Of a stretch of 34,479 nt of DNA, positions 3 through 34,479 are shown one piece after another. The notes below the pieces were generated by a model that was not told the DNA's origin, searched no databases, and was given only the letters and a program-made list of their open reading frames with translations. Position numbers and translations under genes: made by a program. The stretch is from Desulfocapsa sp. (GTDB lineage: Bacteria > Desulfobacterota > Desulfobulbia > Desulfobulbales > Desulfocapsaceae): NCBI GenBank assembly GCA_030145625.1, contig JAQYVF010000050.1, positions 1 to 34,479 of the forward strand. The letters run 5' to 3'. Each line of letters begins with the position of its first letter. The first letter of the stretch is position 1.

Positions 3-2051
3 TTTCCGTTTCTCCTGAGTACAGCACTCTATCCGGAATGGCCCATGGCAGCCGTTCAGAATACACCGAAACAGCTCTCACGGCTTGTTGCATCCGCCTT
101 GATGACCATGGATGAGCAAAGCCCTGCCGCTGTTTCCGGTAATATTGCGGGCTGGACTATTCCCCTTAACTATCAATCTGTCCACGATTGTCTTTTGGCC
201 CTTCGTATTAGTCCCTATGAGATGTATGGCAGGTTTACCCTGGCAGATGTTGTTAAAAAATATTGGTATCAGTTTGTTCTGTTACTAGCGCTACTTATTT
301 CAATTTTCTTAGTTTCTTTTTATATCTTTCGTCTCAATCGAGATCTTCGTCATAAAAAAACAGAAGTTGATGTGCTTAATCAAAACCTTGAAGTGAAGGT
401 GCAGGATCGCACAAAAGAGATTGAAAACTTGTTGGAGAGGGAGATCTACCTCCGTGAAATCCTTCAGACCGTTGCTGATATTAACGAATTGTTGGTGACT
501 TCTGCAAATCTTGAAAAATTGTTGGAGGATTCCTGTTCTCGATTTGTTCGTCACAGTTATTATGATTTTGCCTGGGTCGGTCTGCTTGGTGAGAGCAAGA
601 TTACGGAGATTTTTCTTTCCGACGATGAGCATCTGCTGGAGACTCCGCCTTTTGATCCTGAAGATCCTGGTTCCCCATTTTTCAGATCTGCCACGGCTCA
701 CTGCCTAACTCGGAATACGACTGTGGTTCAGCCTTACAGGTTTGAAGAATCTGGGATGACACCATTGCATAATGGAAAATTGATCAGTGGTCTGCAGTGG
801 GTGATTGCACTTCCCCTTCGGGCGGATCATTTTTCCGAACCAATCGGTGCGCTTTCCGTATATACCTGGCGCAAGCAGGGTTTTGAAGGTGAAGAAATTT
901 CTATGCTCGAAGAGCTTGCCGCTGATTTAGGTTTTGCTATCACCGCCTACGGGCATCGTCAGGCGGTTGCGCAGTTGGAAAGCGAGCGAACGGAAAATTA
1001 TGAAGATACCATTCTTTCCTTTGTGAACATGATCGACCATCGGGACACTTATACTGCCGGTCATACCTTGCGGGTCGCTCATTACTGTCAGTTGATTGCC
1101 TTGGAAATGGGCTATGAAGAGGAAGAAATCCAGGTATTGAGAAAGGCTGCCATTCTCCATGACATCGGAAAAATCGCCACTCCCGACTCGGTACTACTCA
1201 AACCGGGAAAGCTCACCGAAGCTGATTATGACCTGATCAAACTACATGCAGCAGCAGGTTTTGAGATGCTGTCCCAGGTTAAGATGTATCATGAGCTGGC
1301 TGAGATTATTCATCAGCATCATGAGCGGCATGACGGTCAGGGATATCCGGTAGGGATTAAGGGGGACGATATTCACCCTTTTTCCAGGATTATGTCCGTG
1401 GCTGATGCCTTTGATGCGATGACCACCAACCGTATATATAAGCCGAGAAAAGAATTGGACGAAGTACTGGAAGAGCTTTCCAGTCTCAAGGGGATCCAAT
1501 TTCATCCTGCCGTAATTGATGCAGCTGTCAAAGCCTTACGGGATATTTCTGTTACTACCAGCATTAATCAACTGCCGGTCACGGAACTTGAGCGCAAACG
1601 ATTTGCCTATTTTTTTAACGATCATTTGACAGGTCTCTATAACGAAAACTATATGCAAATTATCCTGCAGAATAATCTGGAGTGCTTTGAGTATATCTGT
1701 GTCAATACTCTTCATCCTAAAAAATTACAGGAGTATAACAAGAAAGAAGGGTGGGAACAGGGGAATTGGTTTTTGCAGAATTTCGCTGAAGAATTAAGAC
1801 TAACATACCAAGACAGCTTGGTATTCAGGGCTTTTGGTAATGATTTTATAGTGCTTGCAAAAACTCACAATGAAATCTCCAGGGAGTTGATTAAAACTTT
1901 TGAGAGTACTATGGAAACCGAGATAGACATTGAGGTACGTCATGTGGATTTGAGGGAGGACAAGGAATATACTATGAAAACCCTGGAAAAGATGGGAGTG
2001 ATGGCTGGTTGGGGAGAAAAGAGTGAAAGTGGAGAGGAGGTGAGAGAATAA
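3..2051 (+). CDS. PhnD-like / GAF / HD-GYP signalling protein with degenerate GGDEF-like tail (5' partial)
   Basis: The frame is open to the left edge, so the true start lies outside the window; the ATG at 45 is internal. Before and after it the protein reads like the C-terminal end of a PhnD-type periplasmic binding domain (ALYPEWP..., then GWTIPLNYQSVHDCL). A membrane segment follows (about residues 75-96 counted from the ATG at 45), then a coiled coil, a GAF-like domain (about 135-305) and an HD-GYP domain (about 320-500) with HDIGK near 373 and HHERHDGQGYP near 427. HD-GYP enzymes hydrolyse cyclic-di-GMP. The last 140 residues start like a GGDEF domain (DHLTGLYN) but have AFGNDF where GGDEF is expected, so cyclase activity is unlikely. 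Inferred role: an inner-membrane receptor that couples a periplasmic ligand to c-di-GMP breakdown. The domain order is clear; the ligand is unknown. Confidence 0.9.
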   Translation, partial: FPFLLSTALYPEWPMAAVQNTPKQLSRLVASALMTMDEQSPAAVSGNIAGWTIPLNYQSVHDCLLALRISPYEMYGRFTLADVVKKYWYQFVLLLALLISIFLVSFYIFRLNRDLRHKKTEVDVLNQNLEVKVQDRTKEIENLLEREIYLREILQTVADINELLVTSANLEKLLEDSCSRFVRHSYYDFAWVGLLGESKITEIFLSDDEHLLETPPFDPEDPGSPFFRSATAHCLTRNTTVVQPYRFEESGMTPLHNGKLISGLQWVIALPLRADHFSEPIGALSVYTWRKQGFEGEEISMLEELAADLGFAITAYGHRQAVAQLESERTENYEDTILSFVNMIDHRDTYTAGHTLRVAHYCQLIALEMGYEEEEIQVLRKAAILHDIGKIATPDSVLLKPGKLTEADYDLIKLHAAAGFEMLSQVKMYHELAEIIHQHHERHDGQGYPVGIKGDDIHPFSRIMSVADAFDAMTTNRIYKPRKELDEVLEELSSLKGIQFHPAVIDAAVKALRDISVTTSINQLPVTELERKRFAYFFNDHLTGLYNENYMQIILQNNLECFEYICVNTLHPKKLQEYNKKEGWEQGNWFLQNFAEELRLTYQDSLVFRAFGNDFIVLAKTHNEISRELIKTFESTMETEIDIEVRHVDLREDKEYTMKTLEKMGVMAGWGEKSESGEEVRE

Positions 2052-28550: not shown

Positions 28551-29105
28551 ATGTTGAAACAACGTCGAATATTACTGCAAATTGGATGGATTCTGATTGT
28601 TAGTTTCGGTCTAATCCAATCGGCAACTGCGGGCGAAATGAATTGTAAGGATTTCGTCAGTAACTATGTATCGTGGGCAAAGGCGAAAATCGGAGTGAAC
28701 CGTGTCGGTGCAAAAATGGTTGCCGTTAAAATACGCGAAACAAACCCCACGACATATCCCTGGGGGCACGGTTCTTATTCAGAGGGTGGGTTCGGCCTCC
28801 ATGGCAACGAAATGGAAGGTCGTTTTGTAACTGTTTTTAGTGATAGAAAAGCACCTGGCGGGAAGTATCGATTTGATCCGGATAAGGCAGACATACAGGA
28901 CGTCAAACTCTTTGAAGACGGGCGGGTACAAATAATGCTCAGAACGTGGGGGAATGCCACATTCTTTCTTGACAACGTAATGTGTACCGATGACGGATTT
29001 ATCAATGGAATTCAAAGGGAAGCGAACGGCACTTCAATGGTCACTTTTATTCTTAGAAAGGAAGTCATCATGAAAGGCAGCGATACCTTTCGTGATTGGC
29101 CGTAA
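28551..29105 (+). CDS. secreted hypothetical protein
   Basis: This is a 184-residue protein with a clear signal peptide (basic start, hydrophobic IGWILIVSFGLIQ, probable cleavage after SATA). The mature part of about 156 residues has two cysteines (in NCKDF and VMCTDDG), so a single disulfide is possible, and many short beta-prone segments. AAGGAGGA precedes the ATG by about 8 nt, strong support for translation. I recognise no family. It is isolated between a decayed region and repeat-rich DNA. A hairpin at 29213-29241 may end its transcript. Confidence 0.75.
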   Translation: MLKQRRILLQIGWILIVSFGLIQSATAGEMNCKDFVSNYVSWAKAKIGVNRVGAKMVAVKIRETNPTTYPWGHGSYSEGGFGLHGNEMEGRFVTVFSDRKAPGGKYRFDPDKADIQDVKLFEDGRVQIMLRTWGNATFFLDNVMCTDDGFINGIQREANGTSMVTFILRKEVIMKGSDTFRDWP

Positions 29106-29212
29106 TCCTTGAGCGACCGATATGGAATTTTTTTCATCCAGTCCCTAATTACCTCCCTTCTGCACAACACACCTATAAATAGCAACTATCATGCCTGTGC
29201 ATATGTGGTGGT

Positions 29213-29241
29213 ACCACCTGTGGTAATATACCACGGGTGGT
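29213..29241 (+). terminator. strong hairpin, possible terminator of the secreted-protein gene
   Basis: ACCACCTGTGGTA (29213-29225) pairs with TACCACGGGTGGT (29229-29241) with one G-U pair and an ATA loop. A CTTTTTTTCT tract follows 9 bases after the stem. A second stem, GTAACGG (29240-29246) / CCGTTAC (29263-29269), flanks that T-tract. The T-tract is further away than in standard terminators. Confidence 0.5.
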
Positions 29242-29322
29242 AACGGCCCTCTTTTTTTCTCCCCGTTACTGGCGTACCCTTTTCCCATAGCGAGTTTCGT
29301 TTTGTCGTCAATTGTAACAATG

Positions 29323-29521
29323 GGGGACAGACCAGAATGGCGCTAGTTTAAGGTGTTCTGAATGGTTAATCATGCTGAAAACATGTATAAAAACTTACCT
29401 GCATGACAATATGGAATGCTTAAACTAGCGCCATTCGGGACAGACCACGATTAATTGAGTCGTAACGAGTTATTGCATGATTTAAACAGGCTTTTAAATT
29501 AAAAAAACGTGGTCTGTCTCC
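29323..29521. repeat. REP-like inverted repeat (GGGACAGACCACG / CGTGGTCTGTC)
   Basis: If the inserted element at 29335-29436 and one copy of its 11-bp duplication are removed, GGGGACAGACCACG faces CGTGGTCTGTCTCC (29508-29521) with one mismatch, enclosing about 60 bp. This type of arm is familiar from REP sequences mobilised by REP-associated tyrosine transposases. No transposase gene is present here. Confidence 0.65.
29335..29436. mobile_element. 102-bp MITE with 18-bp terminal inverted repeats and 11-bp target duplication
   Basis: GAATGGCGCTAGTTTAAG (29335-29352) and its perfect inverse CTTAAACTAGCGCCATTC (29419-29436) bound a non-coding 102-bp element. Directly outside, GGGACAGACCA is repeated at 29324-29334 and 29437-29447, a clean 11-bp target-site duplication. 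Duplications of this size are typical of IS4-related transposases, which is only a suggestion for the family. Confidence 0.85.
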
Positions 29522-29654
29522 TGTTTTTCTAGTAACTGGATTAGATTGCCAATGGTTACCTCGTAACATATTGTTTTGTCAGGATTAGTGGGAAATGGTT
29601 ATTTCCGCCTATTTAAATTGTCAGGTTTTTGTGATACAATATTTCTATTGTATT

Positions 29655-29752
29655 AAGATAAAGCCAAACCAGCCGTAAGGCTGGGACGGAAAGCTACGGA
29701 TCTTCGATGATAGCCGAGCTACCTATAATAAGGTGGTTCGGCTTTTTTTTTT
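29655..29752 (+). ncRNA. GEMM-I cyclic-dinucleotide (c-di-GMP) riboswitch with intrinsic terminator
   Basis: The aptamer shows AAGCCAAACC, then the stem CCAGCC-GTAA-GGCTGG (29669-29684) with a GNRA tetraloop. GGGACGGAAAGCTACGG and AGCCGAGCTACC follow, the order seen in class I c-di-GMP riboswitches. The 3' part of the aptamer (29712-29724) is also the 5' arm of a terminator: AGCCGAGCTACCT pairs with AGGTGGTTCGGCT (29731-29743) through two G-U pairs, followed by ten T's to 29752. Ligand binding should compete with the terminator, suggesting an ON switch. Discrimination between c-di-GMP and cGAMP rests on a single base that I cannot align with certainty. The controlled frame starts at 29922. 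Confidence 0.87.
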
Positions 29753-29921
29753 GCCCAACGTGGATATAAATTCAAATTCAGTATGTGATAAAAAAGATCA
29801 ATAAAGGTTAGGTATCATCCAAGGGACAGAAAAGGAACGGAGTCCAAAAAAAGAGAAATTTTCCCAGATAGTTAGTAATGGGTGACACTCTTGACTCGAA
29901 CCGTAGAGGTTATACGAAACA

Positions 29922-30035
29922 ATGAAAAAACTACATATTACGATTCTGTTTGTCGGTCTTTTTGTTATCGCTGCTGGTGGTCTGGCTTGGGCCGTCAACA
30001 AGCTGTCTTCTCACGGCAGGGCAGTCTTCAGGTAA
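29922..30035 (+). pseudogene. truncated exported protein downstream of the riboswitch
   Basis: The 37-codon frame starts MKKLHITILFVGLFVIAAGG and has a complete signal peptide (cleavage probably after LAWA), but only about 13 residues follow before the stop. Its last 25 bp overlap the end of an opposing prophage-type gene. The likeliest reading is a riboswitch-controlled secreted protein whose 3' part was replaced when phage-like DNA joined here. A genuine micropeptide is the alternative. A 15-codon upstream frame (29878-29925) ends in ATGA overlap with this start. AGAGG is 13 nt upstream, rather far for a ribosome site. Confidence 0.55.
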
Positions 30036-30265
30036 GCGATTGCCTTCCTGACTACATCTGCACTGCCATAATCAGAGAGCTCTTGAAAGATGATGCGCAG
30101 GGCCTGCAGCGGATCTTTGCATCGGTCTTCGGTGAAGTGAGGATCTTGAGAATAAAGCCTGATAGTTCGCCCGTTCCGACGCCCAAGGACTTTGATAAGA
30201 AAACTTTCGCCTAGGTGGTTTTTCATGGCATGCCATAACTGCCAAGTTTCGAGTCTTTTGGGCAT
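30011..30265 (-). CDS. small prophage-type hypothetical protein
   Basis: This 84-residue basic protein contains ETWQLWHAMKNHLGESFLIK and a C-terminal helical part DPLQALRIIFQELSDYGS, resembling small accessory proteins next to phage regulators. GGAG lies 9 nt before the ATG. Directly upstream, a 33-codon frame (30266-30367) abuts it with no gap but lacks a ribosome site. I assign no function. It is the last of a minus-strand series facing away from the repressor, at the junction with the truncated riboswitch-controlled gene. Confidence 0.55.
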   Translation of the reverse strand: MPKRLETWQLWHAMKNHLGESFLIKVLGRRNGRTIRLYSQDPHFTEDRCKDPLQALRIIFQELSDYGSADVVRKAIAYLKTALP

Positions 30266-30409
30266 TTACTTGATCTCCAAGACTGCTATCCTGTATCTAT
30301 GGGAAAATATAGTTGCCAAAAACACCTGCCCCCTGCTAGGATTGCAAGTGCCAACAAACAAATCCATTTTTACGTTCAGAGAACGAACAAGGGGCCGGGG
30401 AATCTGAAA

Positions 30410-30628
30410 TTATTGAGTCATTGCCGCGTTAGGCCAAATCTCGGCCTGATCCATCTTCACATCAGCAGCGATTTCCTTCCTCACTCGTTCCGTGTTCGAC
30501 CCTTTTGTCAATTGGCAGGAAATAACCCGATACACGGTGGACATGGTAAATCCTTTTTTCTTGGCCCACTGCTCAACCAGCATGTTAGTGCGGTACATGA
30601 GCAAACCGATGATTTGTACTTTGGTCAT
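30410..30628 (-). CDS. phage-type DNA-binding protein (BcepMu gp16-like)
   Basis: The ATG at 30628 is chosen because AAGGA lies 8 nt upstream; the longer start at 30679 has no such site. The 72-residue protein has VEQWAKKKGFTMSTVYRVISCQ, a helix-turn-helix like that of the gp16 family of Mu-like phages, followed by VRKEIAADVKMDQAEIWP. Such proteins are early regulators encoded divergently from the phage repressor. The gene starts 11 bp after the preceding small frame. Confidence 0.62.
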   Translation of the reverse strand: MTKVQIIGLLMYRTNMLVEQWAKKKGFTMSTVYRVISCQLTKGSNTERVRKEIAADVKMDQAEIWPNAAMTQ

Positions 30629-30639
30629 TGGGTATGTCC

Positions 30640-30822
30640 TTAATGGTGTTTTTTGGTCTGAGGGTATAAATGCAGCCATACCTTTTTATTTTTGAAGCTA
30701 AACCAAGGTCGAACAACAAGAAGGCCGAAGGGTTGGCAGGAGCTATGGCCTATGATATGGGTGTTCTCAACCTCTGCCAGCGGGGCAAGAGATTCTGCAA
30801 GGTGCCGCCTTTCCGATCTCAA
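30640..30822 (-). CDS. small hypothetical protein, phage early region
   Basis: This 60-codon frame uses a TTG start overlapping the preceding stop (TTGA). It is rich in His, Arg and aromatic residues (GHSSCQPFGLLVVRPWF, KVWLHLYP). Close packing with its neighbours, 11 bp before the gp16-like start, is the main support. No family is recognised, and it could be a chance frame. Confidence 0.35.
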   Translation of the reverse strand: MRSERRHLAESLAPLAEVENTHIIGHSSCQPFGLLVVRPWFSFKNKKVWLHLYPQTKKHH

Positions 30823-30989
30823 GTGGACGTTTGTAAAGGAACAAGTTGCTTTCGCGCCAACTCCAAAGCAGCTTCTTGAGTTGGAAACACTAGAAGGACT
30901 GCATTATCGGAAAGCTCAATCCTCTGGTATTGCGGTTCAGTTTTACGGCTGGCTTGAGAATTCACGTCCTGGTTTTTTTTCGTATCCAT
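30819..30989 (-). CDS. small hypothetical protein divergent from the phage repressor
   Basis: The 56-residue protein starts at ATG 30989, with GGAG 6 nt upstream, and contains RIELSDNAVLLVFPTQEAAL, a short beta-alpha pattern. It is the first gene leftward from the repressor control region, where phages of this organisation place an early regulator. Function unknown. Confidence 0.5.
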   Translation of the reverse strand: MDTKKNQDVNSQASRKTEPQYQRIELSDNAVLLVFPTQEAALELARKQLVPLQTST

Positions 30990-31048
30990 CACTATCTCCG
31001 CTTGAAGATGGGTAACTTTGTATCGTTCACGCAAGTATGTCAGTCAAT

Positions 31049-31095
31049 ATATGGGCTATAAATCAACTGTAAAACCATAAATATAGGCTATAATT
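31049..31095. promoter_or_regulatory. paired direct repeats, putative repressor operators
   Basis: ATATGGGCTATAAAT (31049-31063) and ATATAGGCTATAATT (31081-31095) agree at 13 of 15 positions and are 32 bp apart, about three helical turns. They lie in the 109-bp region between divergent genes. The second contains TATAAT, and the repressor ATG at 31099 follows almost at once without a ribosome site. Confidence 0.55.
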
Positions 31096-31098
31096 GTT

Positions 31099-31527
31099 AT
31101 GGGTCAGTCGCAATTAGCTAAAATCATAGTAGAAAGAATGATAGGGGTTGCTGGGGTGAAGAACCAAGTGCAACTTGCACAAGTTTTAGGTATCAAACAG
31201 CCATCTGTTTCCGGTGCGATTACTAAAGGAAAGATTCCTGATAAATGGTTTGAAATCATTGAGGAAAAATATGGAGTAACAAGGGAAGATCTCCTCAAAC
31301 CGCCAACCAAAGAGACGGAGGCGCTTATCCAATCGTCTACTGGCAGCGGTATCTCAATCCAGGCCGGAAGAGATGCCAAAGAAAACATAGTTGAAGGTGG
31401 GGCAGGGGGCCTGTCCAAAGAGGAACAGGAACTCATCGATCTGATCCGTCAGTACGGCGGATCCAAGACCATCGAGAGCTTCAAAAAGCGACTCCTGAAA
31501 ATAAAAAATCTACTTGAGGACAACTAA
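31099..31527 (+). CDS. CI-like phage repressor (HTH, no peptidase domain)
   Basis: The 142-residue protein has an N-terminal helix-turn-helix of the phage CI type (about 6-66): NQVQLAQVLGIKQPSVSGAI, then KGKIPDKWFEIIEEKYGV. The middle has a Gly-rich segment with SIQAGRDAKENIVEGG. The C-terminal 45 residues are a charged helical region (EEQELIDLIRQYGGS) probably for oligomerisation. The LexA/CI-type self-cleaving domain is missing, so SOS cleavage is not expected. It is divergent from the gp16-like gene set, the usual lysogeny-switch layout. No late phage genes follow, so this is a remnant or satellite. Confidence 0.78.
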   Translation: MGQSQLAKIIVERMIGVAGVKNQVQLAQVLGIKQPSVSGAITKGKIPDKWFEIIEEKYGVTREDLLKPPTKETEALIQSSTGSGISIQAGRDAKENIVEGGAGGLSKEEQELIDLIRQYGGSKTIESFKKRLLKIKNLLEDN

Positions 31528-31635
31528 GTAAAGAACGACGATGCATGGAAGAGAAGAGGGTATGAGCCAGACGGCCTTTAAGACCAATTAGCTGTCCAGG
31601 CAGGTAATGACGTAAAAGAAAATATTTTCATCACA

Positions 31636-32016
31636 ATGGTCGCAAATGATTTAGACAAGATCAGCGATTTTGACGGAGCTCTGAAATTCACAGCAGATGC
31701 ACTCAAAGCAGCTTCAAAGCGCTACGACAGACAGATATTGAAAACACTATTATGGGATACCCTGTTTAAAATGTCACTTTTGGCCCTGGTCGCCATTTTC
31801 CTGATCATCTCCATCGGCCAACTGAGCATAAAACCAATTTTTTTATCTCCATTCCTGATGGTGTCATTGTCTCTACTGGTACTGTGCTTCGTAACACCCC
31901 TGCGCAAAGCCGCCCGCATGGAAGCCTGCATCAAACGCGAAATCGACGTCCACTTCGAAGTCTTAAGTATGCTCTACAAAGAAAAAATACTGGCAAAAAT
32001 TAAAGGCCTAAGGTGA
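31636..32016 (+). CDS. small membrane protein, possible phage accessory gene
   Basis: The 126-residue protein has two adjacent membrane helices (LLALVAIFLIISIGQL and FLMVSLSLLVLCFVTPL) between helical, charged ends. No ribosome site precedes ATG 31636. The frame is open 17 codons upstream without a usual start codon and there reads VQAGNDVKENI, echoing SIQAGRDAKENI in the repressor. The true start or an ancestral fusion is therefore unclear. Function unknown; a lysogenic-conversion or exclusion role is only a guess from position. Confidence 0.55.
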   Translation: MVANDLDKISDFDGALKFTADALKAASKRYDRQILKTLLWDTLFKMSLLALVAIFLIISIGQLSIKPIFLSPFLMVSLSLLVLCFVTPLRKAARMEACIKREIDVHFEVLSMLYKEKILAKIKGLR

Positions 32017-32207
32017 TCGTTTTAAAGCAGTGGTGTTATCAAGTTTCTTGGATAACATGCATGAGTGAATGATATCAGGTTAGAAATAATGTTAACTAAT
32101 TAATTATCGTCGGTTCGTACGTCGAGCCGGTGAAGATATCAAGAAACTGGATAATAACTTGTTATACCCAAAATGCTTAGCCGAAGTTTTTATTACGGAG
32201 TAAATCG

Positions 32208-32618
32208 ATGCCTTTAAAATATAGAATAGTGCCGGCCCTAAAGATCGCATATGTAAGAGGTGCGGGAACAGTTACTGCAAATGAAATTATGATAGAAGGC
32301 GCAAAGATGTTAGCAGAAAACGAATGGGTCAATGGATATCACATTCTATGTGATTATAGAGAAATAACAGATTTTAATTTGATGATTGAAGATTTAAATA
32401 GAATCGTAAGTCAGGATCAGGAGAATGAACTGTTATTTGATCAAAGTAAATGCGCAATAGTCGCTGGTAGCGATTTTGTTTTTGGAATTTCGAGAATGTG
32501 GGAGACTCTTTCAGAATACACCAAAGTTAAGACAATGGTTTTTAAAAATATTAAAGATTCCCTATGCTGGCTTGGTATCGATGAGCATGTTTTTCAATCA
32601 ATCAAGGAATTGCCATAA
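32208..32618 (+). CDS. STAS/SpoIIAA-like small protein, possible cassette gene
   Basis: This 136-residue AT-rich gene has GGAG 8 nt before the ATG. The protein layout is YRIVPALKIAYVRGAGTVTA, a central CDYREITDFNL, and a closing CAIVAGSDFVFGISRMWETL...FKNIKDSLCWLGI. This recalls single-domain STAS/SpoIIAA-like proteins of unknown function in environmental bacteria. The stop codon lies inside the first box of the attC-like site at 32613-32703, the typical end of an integron cassette gene. Left of it (32017-32207) I see only an imperfect inverted repeat around AGTTTCTTG (32042) and CAAGAAACT (32140). Confidence 0.6.
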   Translation: MPLKYRIVPALKIAYVRGAGTVTANEIMIEGAKMLAENEWVNGYHILCDYREITDFNLMIEDLNRIVSQDQENELLFDQSKCAIVAGSDFVFGISRMWETLSEYTKVKTMVFKNIKDSLCWLGIDEHVFQSIKELP

Positions 32619-32703
32619 CCAAAGCATTCACCAAACGGCAAGAAGCGCGGTAGCGCTGACTCGGGTAGTTTGGGTTGGCCGCTGGTGATGCTGGTCGTTT
32701 GGT
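32613..32703 (+). other. putative integron attC site 1
   Basis: Outer boxes end in AAC (CCATAAC, 32613-32619) and begin with GTT (GTTTGGT, 32697-32703). GCATTCACCA (32624-32633) pairs with TGGTGATGC (32683-32691) except for one unpaired T, the extrahelical base characteristic of attC. An inner stem AGCGC-GGTA-GCGCT (32644-32657) adds structure. The outer boxes match the consensus less well than in site 2. Confidence 0.5.
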
Positions 32704-32716
32704 TGAGAAGAGACAT

Positions 32717-33331
32717 ATGGATTCACATTCGATAAACCTTCGCCCAGCTAATTCCATGGAAGACGACGGTTTGGCCTTTGCCCGATACCTCGACGAAGCC
32801 GCCGAGGGATTCTTTCGCTTCATGCTCGGTCGTCGAGCCAGGCAGATAGTCGCCACAGCGTTTACTCAGCCGGACCACGATCTCTCACACCAAAACGTAA
32901 CCTTCGCAGAACATGACAACGTTATCGTAGGGATGGTCTCCGGCTACACTGCCGAACAGCATCGCCGATTCACACGAGAATCACTCACGCGAGCTGCGGG
33001 CCGGTGGAATCTGCGGATGCGGATCGTGCTGGGGTTGTTCTCACCGCTCATGCGGATTATCGACTCGATCGCTGATAATGACTTCTATCTTCAGGCCATT
33101 GCTGTTGACGAGGAGTGGCGTGGCGTGGGCGTCGGTACCGTGTTGATGGATTCACTTGAACAGCAGGCCCATGCGAGTGGGTGTACTCGGTTGGCTCTTG
33201 ATGTTTCAGAGAAAAACGAGAGTGCCCGTCGCTTCTACGAGCGTCGTGGAATGACCATAGAGTCGCAATGGCCGAAGTGTCTGAAGATACCAGCAATAAG
33301 GTTCTATCGAATGACCAAGATACTAGAATAG
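32717..33331 (+). CDS. GNAT family N-acetyltransferase (cassette-borne)
   Basis: ATG 32717 is preferred over the upstream TTG 32675, which lies inside attC site 1. The 204-residue protein has a GNAT fold: the acetyl-CoA loop VDEEWRGVGVGTVLMDSLE and the C-terminal NESARRFYERRGMTIESQW motif. The substrate is unknown and could be a small molecule, an antibiotic or a protein. Base composition is visibly richer in GC than the AT-rich genes on both sides. The gene begins 13 bp after one attC-like site and ends 7 bp before another, the exact layout of a mobile gene cassette. Confidence 0.88.
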   Translation: MDSHSINLRPANSMEDDGLAFARYLDEAAEGFFRFMLGRRARQIVATAFTQPDHDLSHQNVTFAEHDNVIVGMVSGYTAEQHRRFTRESLTRAAGRWNLRMRIVLGLFSPLMRIIDSIADNDFYLQAIAVDEEWRGVGVGTVLMDSLEQQAHASGCTRLALDVSEKNESARRFYERRGMTIESQWPKCLKIPAIRFYRMTKILE

Positions 33332-33338
33332 GAGAACA

Positions 33339-33398
33339 GCTGAACAAAGCGCTCCAGCAGACGCCGCTGCGCGTCGCGTGCTGAGCTTATCGTTCGGC
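33339..33398 (+). other. integron attC site 2
   Basis: GCTGAAC (33339-33345) and GTTCGGC (33392-33398) form the outer boxes. After five-base spacers, GCTCCAGCA (33351-33359) pairs with TGCTGAGC (33379-33386), leaving one extrahelical C. GACGC-CGCTGC-GCGTC (33360-33375) is the tip. The length of 60 bp and the central GACGCCGCT resemble attC sites of well-known resistance cassettes. It follows the GNAT stop by 7 bp. Confidence 0.75.
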
Positions 33399-33475
33399 AG
33401 CGCAGCGTGGATAACACAAATGGACAGAGAATCAAGTTACTTAATTTTAAGATGTTAGATTAGTGTTGAACTACT

Positions 33476-34207
33476 ATGAAAGATAAAGAAAAAAATAGTG
33501 AACATCTCCTTGCTGAAATAAAATCTCTGCAAAAGAAACTGACCGAGTTGGAATCTTTTAAAAAAGATCAAATGCATATTGAACTGGAGCTTCAAAACTC
33601 AAAAGAAGTTCTTGAAATGATAATGAACAATATACCAAAGCAGGTATTTTGGAAGAACCGCGACCTAATATATATCGGGTGCAATCAGGCCTTTGCTGAA
33701 GTGACCGGTATGAGTGATCCCGCTGAGGTGATCGGAAAGACCGATTATGATTTTCACAGGGACTCGACACATGCGGACTCCTATAGAGAGTGGGACAAAA
33801 AGATAATGGATAATGGTGAACCAGTCCTTGATATAGAGGAACCCTATCATAATTCTGACGGAAGTGAAGGAACTGTCCTTACTAGCAAAGTTCCTCTTAG
33901 AGACAAAGATGGTAACGTGTTTGGGCTTCTAGGGATATGTACTGATATATCCGAACGGAAAAAGATGGAGCTTGAAAATAAATCTCTTATTCAAGAACTG
34001 AAAGATGCAATGTCGGAAGTAAAGACTCTTGGTGGCCTTCTTCCCATCTGCTCAAACTGTAAAAAGATCAGGGACGATAAGGGCTACTGGAAACAAATTG
34101 AATCATACATCACGGATCACTCTGATGCCGAATTTACTCACGGTATATGCCAGGACTGTGCCAAAATGCTCTATCCTGATTTTGTCGATGAGAATGGAAA
34201 TATTTAG
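33476..34207 (+). CDS. PAS domain sensor protein with C-terminal four-cysteine tail
   Basis: The 243-residue soluble protein starts with a coiled coil (about 1-45), then a PAS domain (about 45-165: FWKNRDLIYIGCNQAFAEVTG, DYDFHRD, closing VFGLLGICTDISERKKMELE). It ends with the tail VKTLGGLLPICSNCKKIRDD ... GICQDCAKMLYPDF, where two CxxC pairs could bind zinc. This tail is common at the end of PAS-containing proteins in Desulfobacterota, where its role is unknown. No kinase, GGDEF or HTH output domain is present, so it may signal through protein contacts. It lies 78 bp after attC site 2, but I found no third attC behind it. Confidence 0.82.
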   Translation: MKDKEKNSEHLLAEIKSLQKKLTELESFKKDQMHIELELQNSKEVLEMIMNNIPKQVFWKNRDLIYIGCNQAFAEVTGMSDPAEVIGKTDYDFHRDSTHADSYREWDKKIMDNGEPVLDIEEPYHNSDGSEGTVLTSKVPLRDKDGNVFGLLGICTDISERKKMELENKSLIQELKDAMSEVKTLGGLLPICSNCKKIRDDKGYWKQIESYITDHSDAEFTHGICQDCAKMLYPDFVDENGNI

Positions 34208-34479
34208 TATTTAAGGAGAAAGGGGACGGGTTTGTTATAATTCCTCGCCTCTAATAAATCAACCGGCAAAAATCGCCGAACCATCTAATTAACGCAGACC
34301 GCAAGCACGTTAGTTTGTTGGCTTTGCTTATTTGGGTGTTTACCGACAACATGACAACAGGGTCGGACCAAGTCAACATCTTGGTATTGTGGAATAAACT
34401 ATTTGAGAACGGCCCTTCTTTGTGCTTAAAAACACTTTTTTAGTGGCGGAAACAGCACGCTAACCAAGAAATGCACCGG
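34208..34479. other. terminal intergenic stretch
   Basis: These 272 bp to the window edge hold no supported gene. There is a small CGGC/GCCG hairpin near 34263-34278 and an AAAGGGGACGGG string near 34220 that might be one arm of a REP-like repeat cut by the window. I could not find an attC or integrase. Confidence 0.4.

Follow-up and report, generated by a model that had tools for sequence, protein, structure and literature searches.

A study on the pilM switch of Geobacter metallireducens describes, in its passages on that leader, a GEMM-I riboswitch that senses cGAMP and operates as a transcriptional ON switch, in which the aptamer and the terminator are mutually exclusive (PMC9262584). For the c-di-GMP-I aptamer, the account of the binding pocket in PMC9049102 names G20, A47 and C92 as the bases that contact the ligand. 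The locus described here belongs to this known kind in its aptamer class, its ON logic and its position ahead of exported proteins, and its orphaning through phage DNA is an event particular to this place. With the pilM switch, as far as the passages of PMC9262584 on that leader go, it has in common a GEMM-I aptamer, the mutual exclusion of aptamer and terminator, and a predicted ON logic. It differs in carrying a G in place of the A at the selectivity position, for which reason c-di-GMP is expected as its ligand, and in preceding the remnant of an exported-protein gene and not pilM.

The window, that is, the whole stretch of DNA analysed, is a complete contig of 34,479 bases (C227) from a genome of 4.98 Mb in 229 contigs (G000, referred to below as the own genome). 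The interpretation that we consider probable is that it holds a transcription-terminating, ON-type GEMM-I riboswitch, most likely for c-di-GMP, whose target was lost through recombination with a prophage. Such a riboswitch would have outlived its target: the highest-scoring aptamer of the genome has lost the gene behind it. Junctions of this sort may also be places where a ready-made, ligand-controlled leader can pass to a new gene. The features on which this interpretation is built are collected in Table 1.

Table 1. Features of the riboswitch locus and the adjoining prophage remnant, in coordinates of the window
Feature	Position	Strand	Evidence or remark
Candidate sigma-70-type promoter	29612-29640	+	TTTAAA - 17 - TACAAT, TG before the second hexamer; consensus scan
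GEMM-I (class I cyclic-dinucleotide) aptamer	29654-29727	+	RF03167, RF01051, contact columns, covariation in 42 leaders
Intrinsic terminator	29712-29752	+	13-bp stem 29712-29724 / 29731-29743, ten T at 29743-29752
Exported-protein gene remnant, 37 codons	29922-30035	+	Translation, junction comparison
Junction zone of host exported gene and prophage	29990-29999		Similarity to C197 and G002; point uncertain within 10 bases
Prophage remnant	29999-32026		Match to C197; right end uncertain
5' part of phage gene, 84 codons	30011-30265	-	C197 homologue has 150 codons
Small HTH protein, presumably Cro-like by position	30410-30679	-	22.7 bits and E 1.3e-4 with phrog_925 (HTH DNA-binding protein)
CI-like phage repressor, 142 aa, apparently complete	31099-31527	+	PF07022, 23.9 bits, cut-off 22; homologues in G002 and C197

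Aptamer class and ligand

The first-pass annotation, made from the letters alone, had recognized a well-formed GEMM-I-type aptamer and had suggested a covariance-model search with RF01051, and the models bear this out. RF03167 matches over its full length (model positions 1-80 of 80) with 74.5 bits (E 4.5e-16, cut-off 59); it is the highest-scoring Rfam model for this aptamer, and its match is the sole one in the window above the curated Rfam cut-off. RF01051 gives 71.3 bits at the same place, again over the full length of the model and far above its cut-off of 35. At E up to 1e-3, the own genome contains 23 GEMM-I matches (L001, the window copy, to L023), among which the window aptamer has the top bit score with both models. 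The cut-off of RF03167 is passed by 15 of these copies and that of RF01051 by 20, and four are weak, scoring below 40 bits. At the same threshold, at least one match was found in 21 of the 36 genomes searched, the own genome included, and none in the 14 control genomes; two of the 20 genomes of the genus have 23 and 22 matches, respectively. These two genomes show that an extensive set of GEMM-I leaders occurs in this Desulfocapsa-like genus.

When the Vc2 columns are transferred through the positions given in PMC6274999, G29663, A29690 and C29722 of the window presumably take the places of Vc2 bases 20, 47 and 92. The window thus has the contact bases G, A and C of RF01051 (c-di-GMP-I) in addition to the full-length match, and nothing essential differs. 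In the 42 leaders of the genus, a G occupies the 20-equivalent position in 41, an A the 47-equivalent position in all 42, and a C the 92-equivalent position in 39. Because G, A and C are the set of contact bases that goes with c-di-GMP, this dinucleotide is predicted to be the most likely ligand of the window aptamer.

It appears unlikely that the ligand is instead 3',3'-cGAMP, or that both cyclic dinucleotides are bound. The pair beside the pocket, at the 21-46-equivalent position, is C-G in the window, as is C15-G40 in the portion of PMC6274999 that deals with the cGAMP riboswitch, whereas the Vc2-type structure has G21 and C46 in the corresponding portion of PMC9049102. Moreover, the cGAMP-sensing pilM switch follows the same ON logic, and the base at the G20-equivalent position is presented in the relevant part of that report as a factor in selectivity rather than a hard filter (PMC9262584). 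On the other side, the selectivity position is a G and not an A in 41 of the 42 genus leaders, including that of the window. The enzymes of the genome also argue against cGAMP. A survey of GGDEF domains in the own genome returned 32 matches, of which 30 loci were fetched and 27 were readable (three were not), and all 27, two of them pieces of one gene, have Asp at the GGDEF position where Hypr cGAMP synthases have Ser, which we take to be their signature.

The score of RF03167 (c-di-GMP-I-GGC) raises a question of naming. The letters GGC presumably denote bases 20, 47 and 92, which the model consensus fits, with a G at the 47-equivalent position. The window has A29690 there, as do all 42 genus leaders at this position, and on this reading of the name we do not assign it to the GGC variant in spite of its score. 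The Rfam label c-di-GMP-I-GGC can accordingly fall on aptamers that lack the consensus G at the 47-equivalent position.

The contig that bears the switch also encodes, at 45-2051 (+), a likely c-di-GMP phosphodiesterase, in which GAF, HD (HD_5, HD-GYP-like) and degenerate GGDEF domains are combined.

Overlapping terminator and alternative folds

The 3' strand of the aptamer doubles as the 5' arm of a terminator that ends in ten T, just as had been noticed in the letters. The terminator stem comprises 13 pairs (G-U included) around a loop of 6 nt, with the ten T following or overlapping it, and takes in the 3' strand of P3, the C92-equivalent base and part of the 3' strand of P1. The full leader (29650-29752) folds with this terminator at a minimum free energy (MFE) of -38.4 kcal/mol, and none of 200 shuffles came as low. 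If ended at 29728, the leader folds as P2 plus P3 at -23.8 kcal/mol, a value matched by one of 200 shuffles. P1 is absent from both MFE folds.

Both structures are conserved in an alignment of 42 leaders, 23 from the own genome and 19 from the same genus, nine loci of other genera having been omitted beforehand from the 28 relative loci fetched. Of the aptamer cells, 92.0% are paired. Double changes occupy 95 cells, where shuffles give 29.8 on average, and changes on both sides occur at 12 of the 21 pairs (shuffle mean 8.2), which is covariation of the P1-P2-P3 architecture. Within this architecture, P1 is the weak element, with pairing in 71.4% of its cells, and in seven of the ten P3 pairs variation is confined to one of the two sides. 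In the terminator, 94.1% of cells are paired and 38 show double changes, where shuffles average 7.2; changes on both sides occur at 11 of the 13 pairs (shuffle mean 3.4). When the partners were slid by up to three columns, pairing reached at best 50.0% for the aptamer and 54.4% for the terminator.

Since aptamer and terminator are mutually exclusive and both are kept in the leaders of the genus, an ON switch is to be expected, and the window leader is most likely a transcriptional switch of this type, as judged from its sequence and those of its relatives. Without ligand, the terminator would take the 3' strand of the aptamer, and the ten T would be where transcription ends. Bound ligand would stabilize the aptamer and thereby block the terminator, so that RNA polymerase would go on.

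A candidate promoter ends 13 bases upstream of the aptamer. The region 29100-30300 has two promoter-like sites, where shuffled sequence has 2.4 on average, meaning that a match by itself is at the level of chance, and the case for this candidate is its place directly ahead of the aptamer.

The junction and the two truncated genes

The reading frame behind the leader was described in the first-pass annotation as a 37-codon frame with a signal sequence that ends inside an opposing phage-type gene, and this description is accurate: the frame opens with an ATG and a signal-peptide-like start, has no body, and overlaps the opposing phage frame. It is not the sole downstream frame, as had been stated, in that a GTG-started frame of 110 aa (29882-30214) overlaps it. 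The latter crosses the junction and matches no Pfam family at E up to 1, and we take it as spurious.

That a prophage junction lies here had likewise been perceived, and it can be placed by similarity to the prophages on contig C197 of the own genome and in a relative (G002). Over 29940-29989, agreement is at chance level (15 of 50 bases with C197 and 14 of 50 with G002); over 29990-29999, it is 7 of 10 and 6 of 10, respectively; and over 30000-30059, it rises to 57 of 60 and 48 of 60. The junction can be placed only to within the 10 bases of 29990-29999, since seven of these are compatible with the C197 phage as well. In blastn, window positions 29990-30697 match G000:C197 at 93% and positions 29999-30648 match G002:C92 at 90%. 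Among the 20 genomes of the genus, only the window's own has the junction, and the exact 33-base junction pattern gave 0 matches in IMG/VR.

The phage gene is broken too, as its frame meets a premature stop with the junction four to seven codons beyond. Its 150-codon homologue on C197 has zero matches among 50,697 phage records, and the 15 stretches of IMG/VR that fit its pattern include no relative. Genes for an integrase, a DnaB helicase and a GpA terminase lie on C197, together with one for an HTH protein (below the Pfam cut-off) that occupies the place of the repressor. Given this set of genes, the matching part of the window is prophage DNA. The C197 prophage continues for at least 6.8 kb (6,761 bases) past the window match, and these 6,761 bases recur elsewhere in the assembly only as two 73% pieces on C114, which cover 266 and 132 query bases. 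At the other end, 32029-32164 matches another part of C197 at 84%. This segment contains a short repeat also found in other contigs and genomes, which leaves the right end of the remnant uncertain.

The repressor of the window (31099-31527) and that of C197 (L169 7529-7972) have the C-terminal half in common and differ in the DNA-binding half. By eye, the DNA-binding half of the window repressor matches that of the G002 prophage. The arrangement of the halves looks like immunity-region mosaicism, as far as such a comparison of sequences can tell.

The simplest account of the recombination is a deletion with one end in the exported gene, directly behind the part for the signal peptide, and the other in the phage gene. 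By joining these two points it would have eliminated the remainder of either gene: the exported protein would have lost its body and the prophage a large part of its DNA, with a signal-peptide stub of 37 codons left behind. Of the two outcomes that had been offered at the outset, the favoured one is that a regulated secreted protein lost its body at a junction with phage DNA, the junction itself being evident from prophage similarity. The accompanying phrase that the gene was "decapitated by phage DNA" is right as to the loss at a phage junction and wrong as to the part lost, because the head was kept and the body is gone. The present state is most likely that of an intact leader, predicted to respond to its ligand, that drives a useless stub.

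An assembly artefact, with a false join between sequences that belong to different places or strains and with the true exported gene continuing elsewhere, is an improbable source of the junction. The genome lies in 229 contigs, its nearest named relatives are metagenome assemblies, and the window's own genome is the only one of 20 in which the junction occurs, all of which would be compatible with a misjoin. The two sides, however, share only CAAG, within the zone where 7 of 10 bases agree, and an overlap of that length is too little for the usual repeat-driven misjoin. In addition, the phage side is 93% and not 100% identical to C197 and so is no mis-joined copy of it, and the DNA-binding half of the window repressor resembles that of G002 and not that of C197.

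A different fate of the orphaned switch concerns the CI-like repressor, which is on the same strand. No terminator-like site was found on the + strand in 29740-32300, and from the position of the two elements readthrough from the switch to the repressor is conceivable. It nevertheless seems very unlikely that the c-di-GMP ON riboswitch now acts as a distal leader of the repressor and as a source of antisense transcripts across the opposing phage genes, with phage immunity rising with c-di-GMP. If this were true, immunity to related phages would increase with c-di-GMP, that is, in the biofilm state.

Hardly credible is the second outcome offered at the outset, that the switch now controls a functional exported micropeptide of 37 codons: an open frame with a signal-peptide-like start does directly follow an intact switch, but 10 to 13 residues at its end are encoded by the antisense strand of a phage gene, its junction is confined, among the 20 genus genomes, to that of the window, and the DNA of 29763-29989 matches nothing in these 20 genomes except the window itself. 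As a conserved micropeptide, the frame is rejected, having no conservation and a phage-derived tail. We thus return to the loss of the target by recombination with the prophage as the probable explanation.

Flanking DNA and the other GEMM-I leaders

The uninterrupted exported gene was sought with the DNA of 29133-31098 in the 20 genus genomes (own included; up to 15 candidates scored in each) and was not found; the earlier suggestion to recover the original full-length gene from a relative therefore came to nothing within this set. Apart from the window itself, that DNA matched short repeats, prophage sequence and the aptamer region, the last extended upstream by about 110 bases at most. The contig of the closest relative (L055) is syntenic up to 29132, where a transposase-like gene (by eye) follows, and ends about 2.3 kb further on; for these two reasons, it cannot show an uninterrupted site. 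The right flank (32030-34479) has, the window aside, matches of no more than 190 bases in the 20 genomes.

Two repeat-like features were seen in the flanks. A palindromic repeat with two arms of about 30 bases, of the TGGCGCTAGTTTAA type, lies at 29319-29452 and recurs in several members of the genus and on other contigs of the own genome, C197 with its prophage among them; it is possibly a MITE or a REP-like element. A GNAT acetyltransferase gene (32675-33331) stands between palindromic, cassette-like spacers (32600-33420). As attC cassettes these palindromes were rejected, since by eye they do not fit the attC core consensus.

Most of the roughly 20 such leaders of the own genome stand ahead of exported proteins. 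A signal-peptide ORF, defined by a heuristic of our own as a frame of at least 100 codons within 700 nt with a signal-peptide-like start, is present behind 16 of the 23 own copies and behind 40 of 500 random points, the latter being drawn from DNA of the relatives' loci and subject to the further requirement, not applied to the own copies, of a stop codon ahead of the frame. The seven without such an ORF are L001 (the window), L019 (at a contig end), L006, L009, L014, L021 and L022, of which L014 has by eye a Tat-like start that the heuristic overlooked. The copies L002-L023 share with the window copy the aptamer and, in most, the overlapping terminator; they differ in the longer reading frames behind them, where the window copy leads only a stub.

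Proteins directly behind six own copies combine a signal peptide with a KVVVIPL-like motif. No model of Pfam or NCBIfam above cut-off covers this motif. With E up to 1e-3 as the threshold, a profile of the N-terminus finds 13 places in the own genome, among them the seven from which it was built. The C-terminal parts of these proteins differ; matches there were one of 33.4 bits to Lcl_C, a little below its cut-off of 34.9, and a weak one to a beta-helix model. A shared N-terminus of signal peptide and KVVVIPL-like motif with unrelated C-terminal parts was noted for L002, L007, L008, L012, L015, L023 and L156. The remnant in the window reads ...AWA-VNK and then passes into phage DNA; its NK aligns with the [ND]K of the KVVVIPL family, at or in the junction zone, and its V-N-K residues may be either host-derived or phage-derived. 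The window ORF is not among the places found with the N-terminal profile in the own genome, even at E up to 10.

Several copies have features of their own. L021, a weak copy without a signal-peptide ORF, has an A at the 20-equivalent (selectivity) position, and L022 departs from the consensus at several contact columns; L022 and L023 are weak copies as well, and all three are perhaps decaying or changed switches. Two of the 16 copies with a signal-peptide ORF, L017 and L018 (G000:C121 5032-5106 and 5160-5234), form a tandem of complete leaders, each with its own terminator, before one gene for an exported protein. L009 precedes a protein that by eye has no signal sequence, and a look-alike of this protein is found behind a switch in another genus (L040), which suggests that this kind of protein has a conserved association with the GEMM-I switch across two genera.
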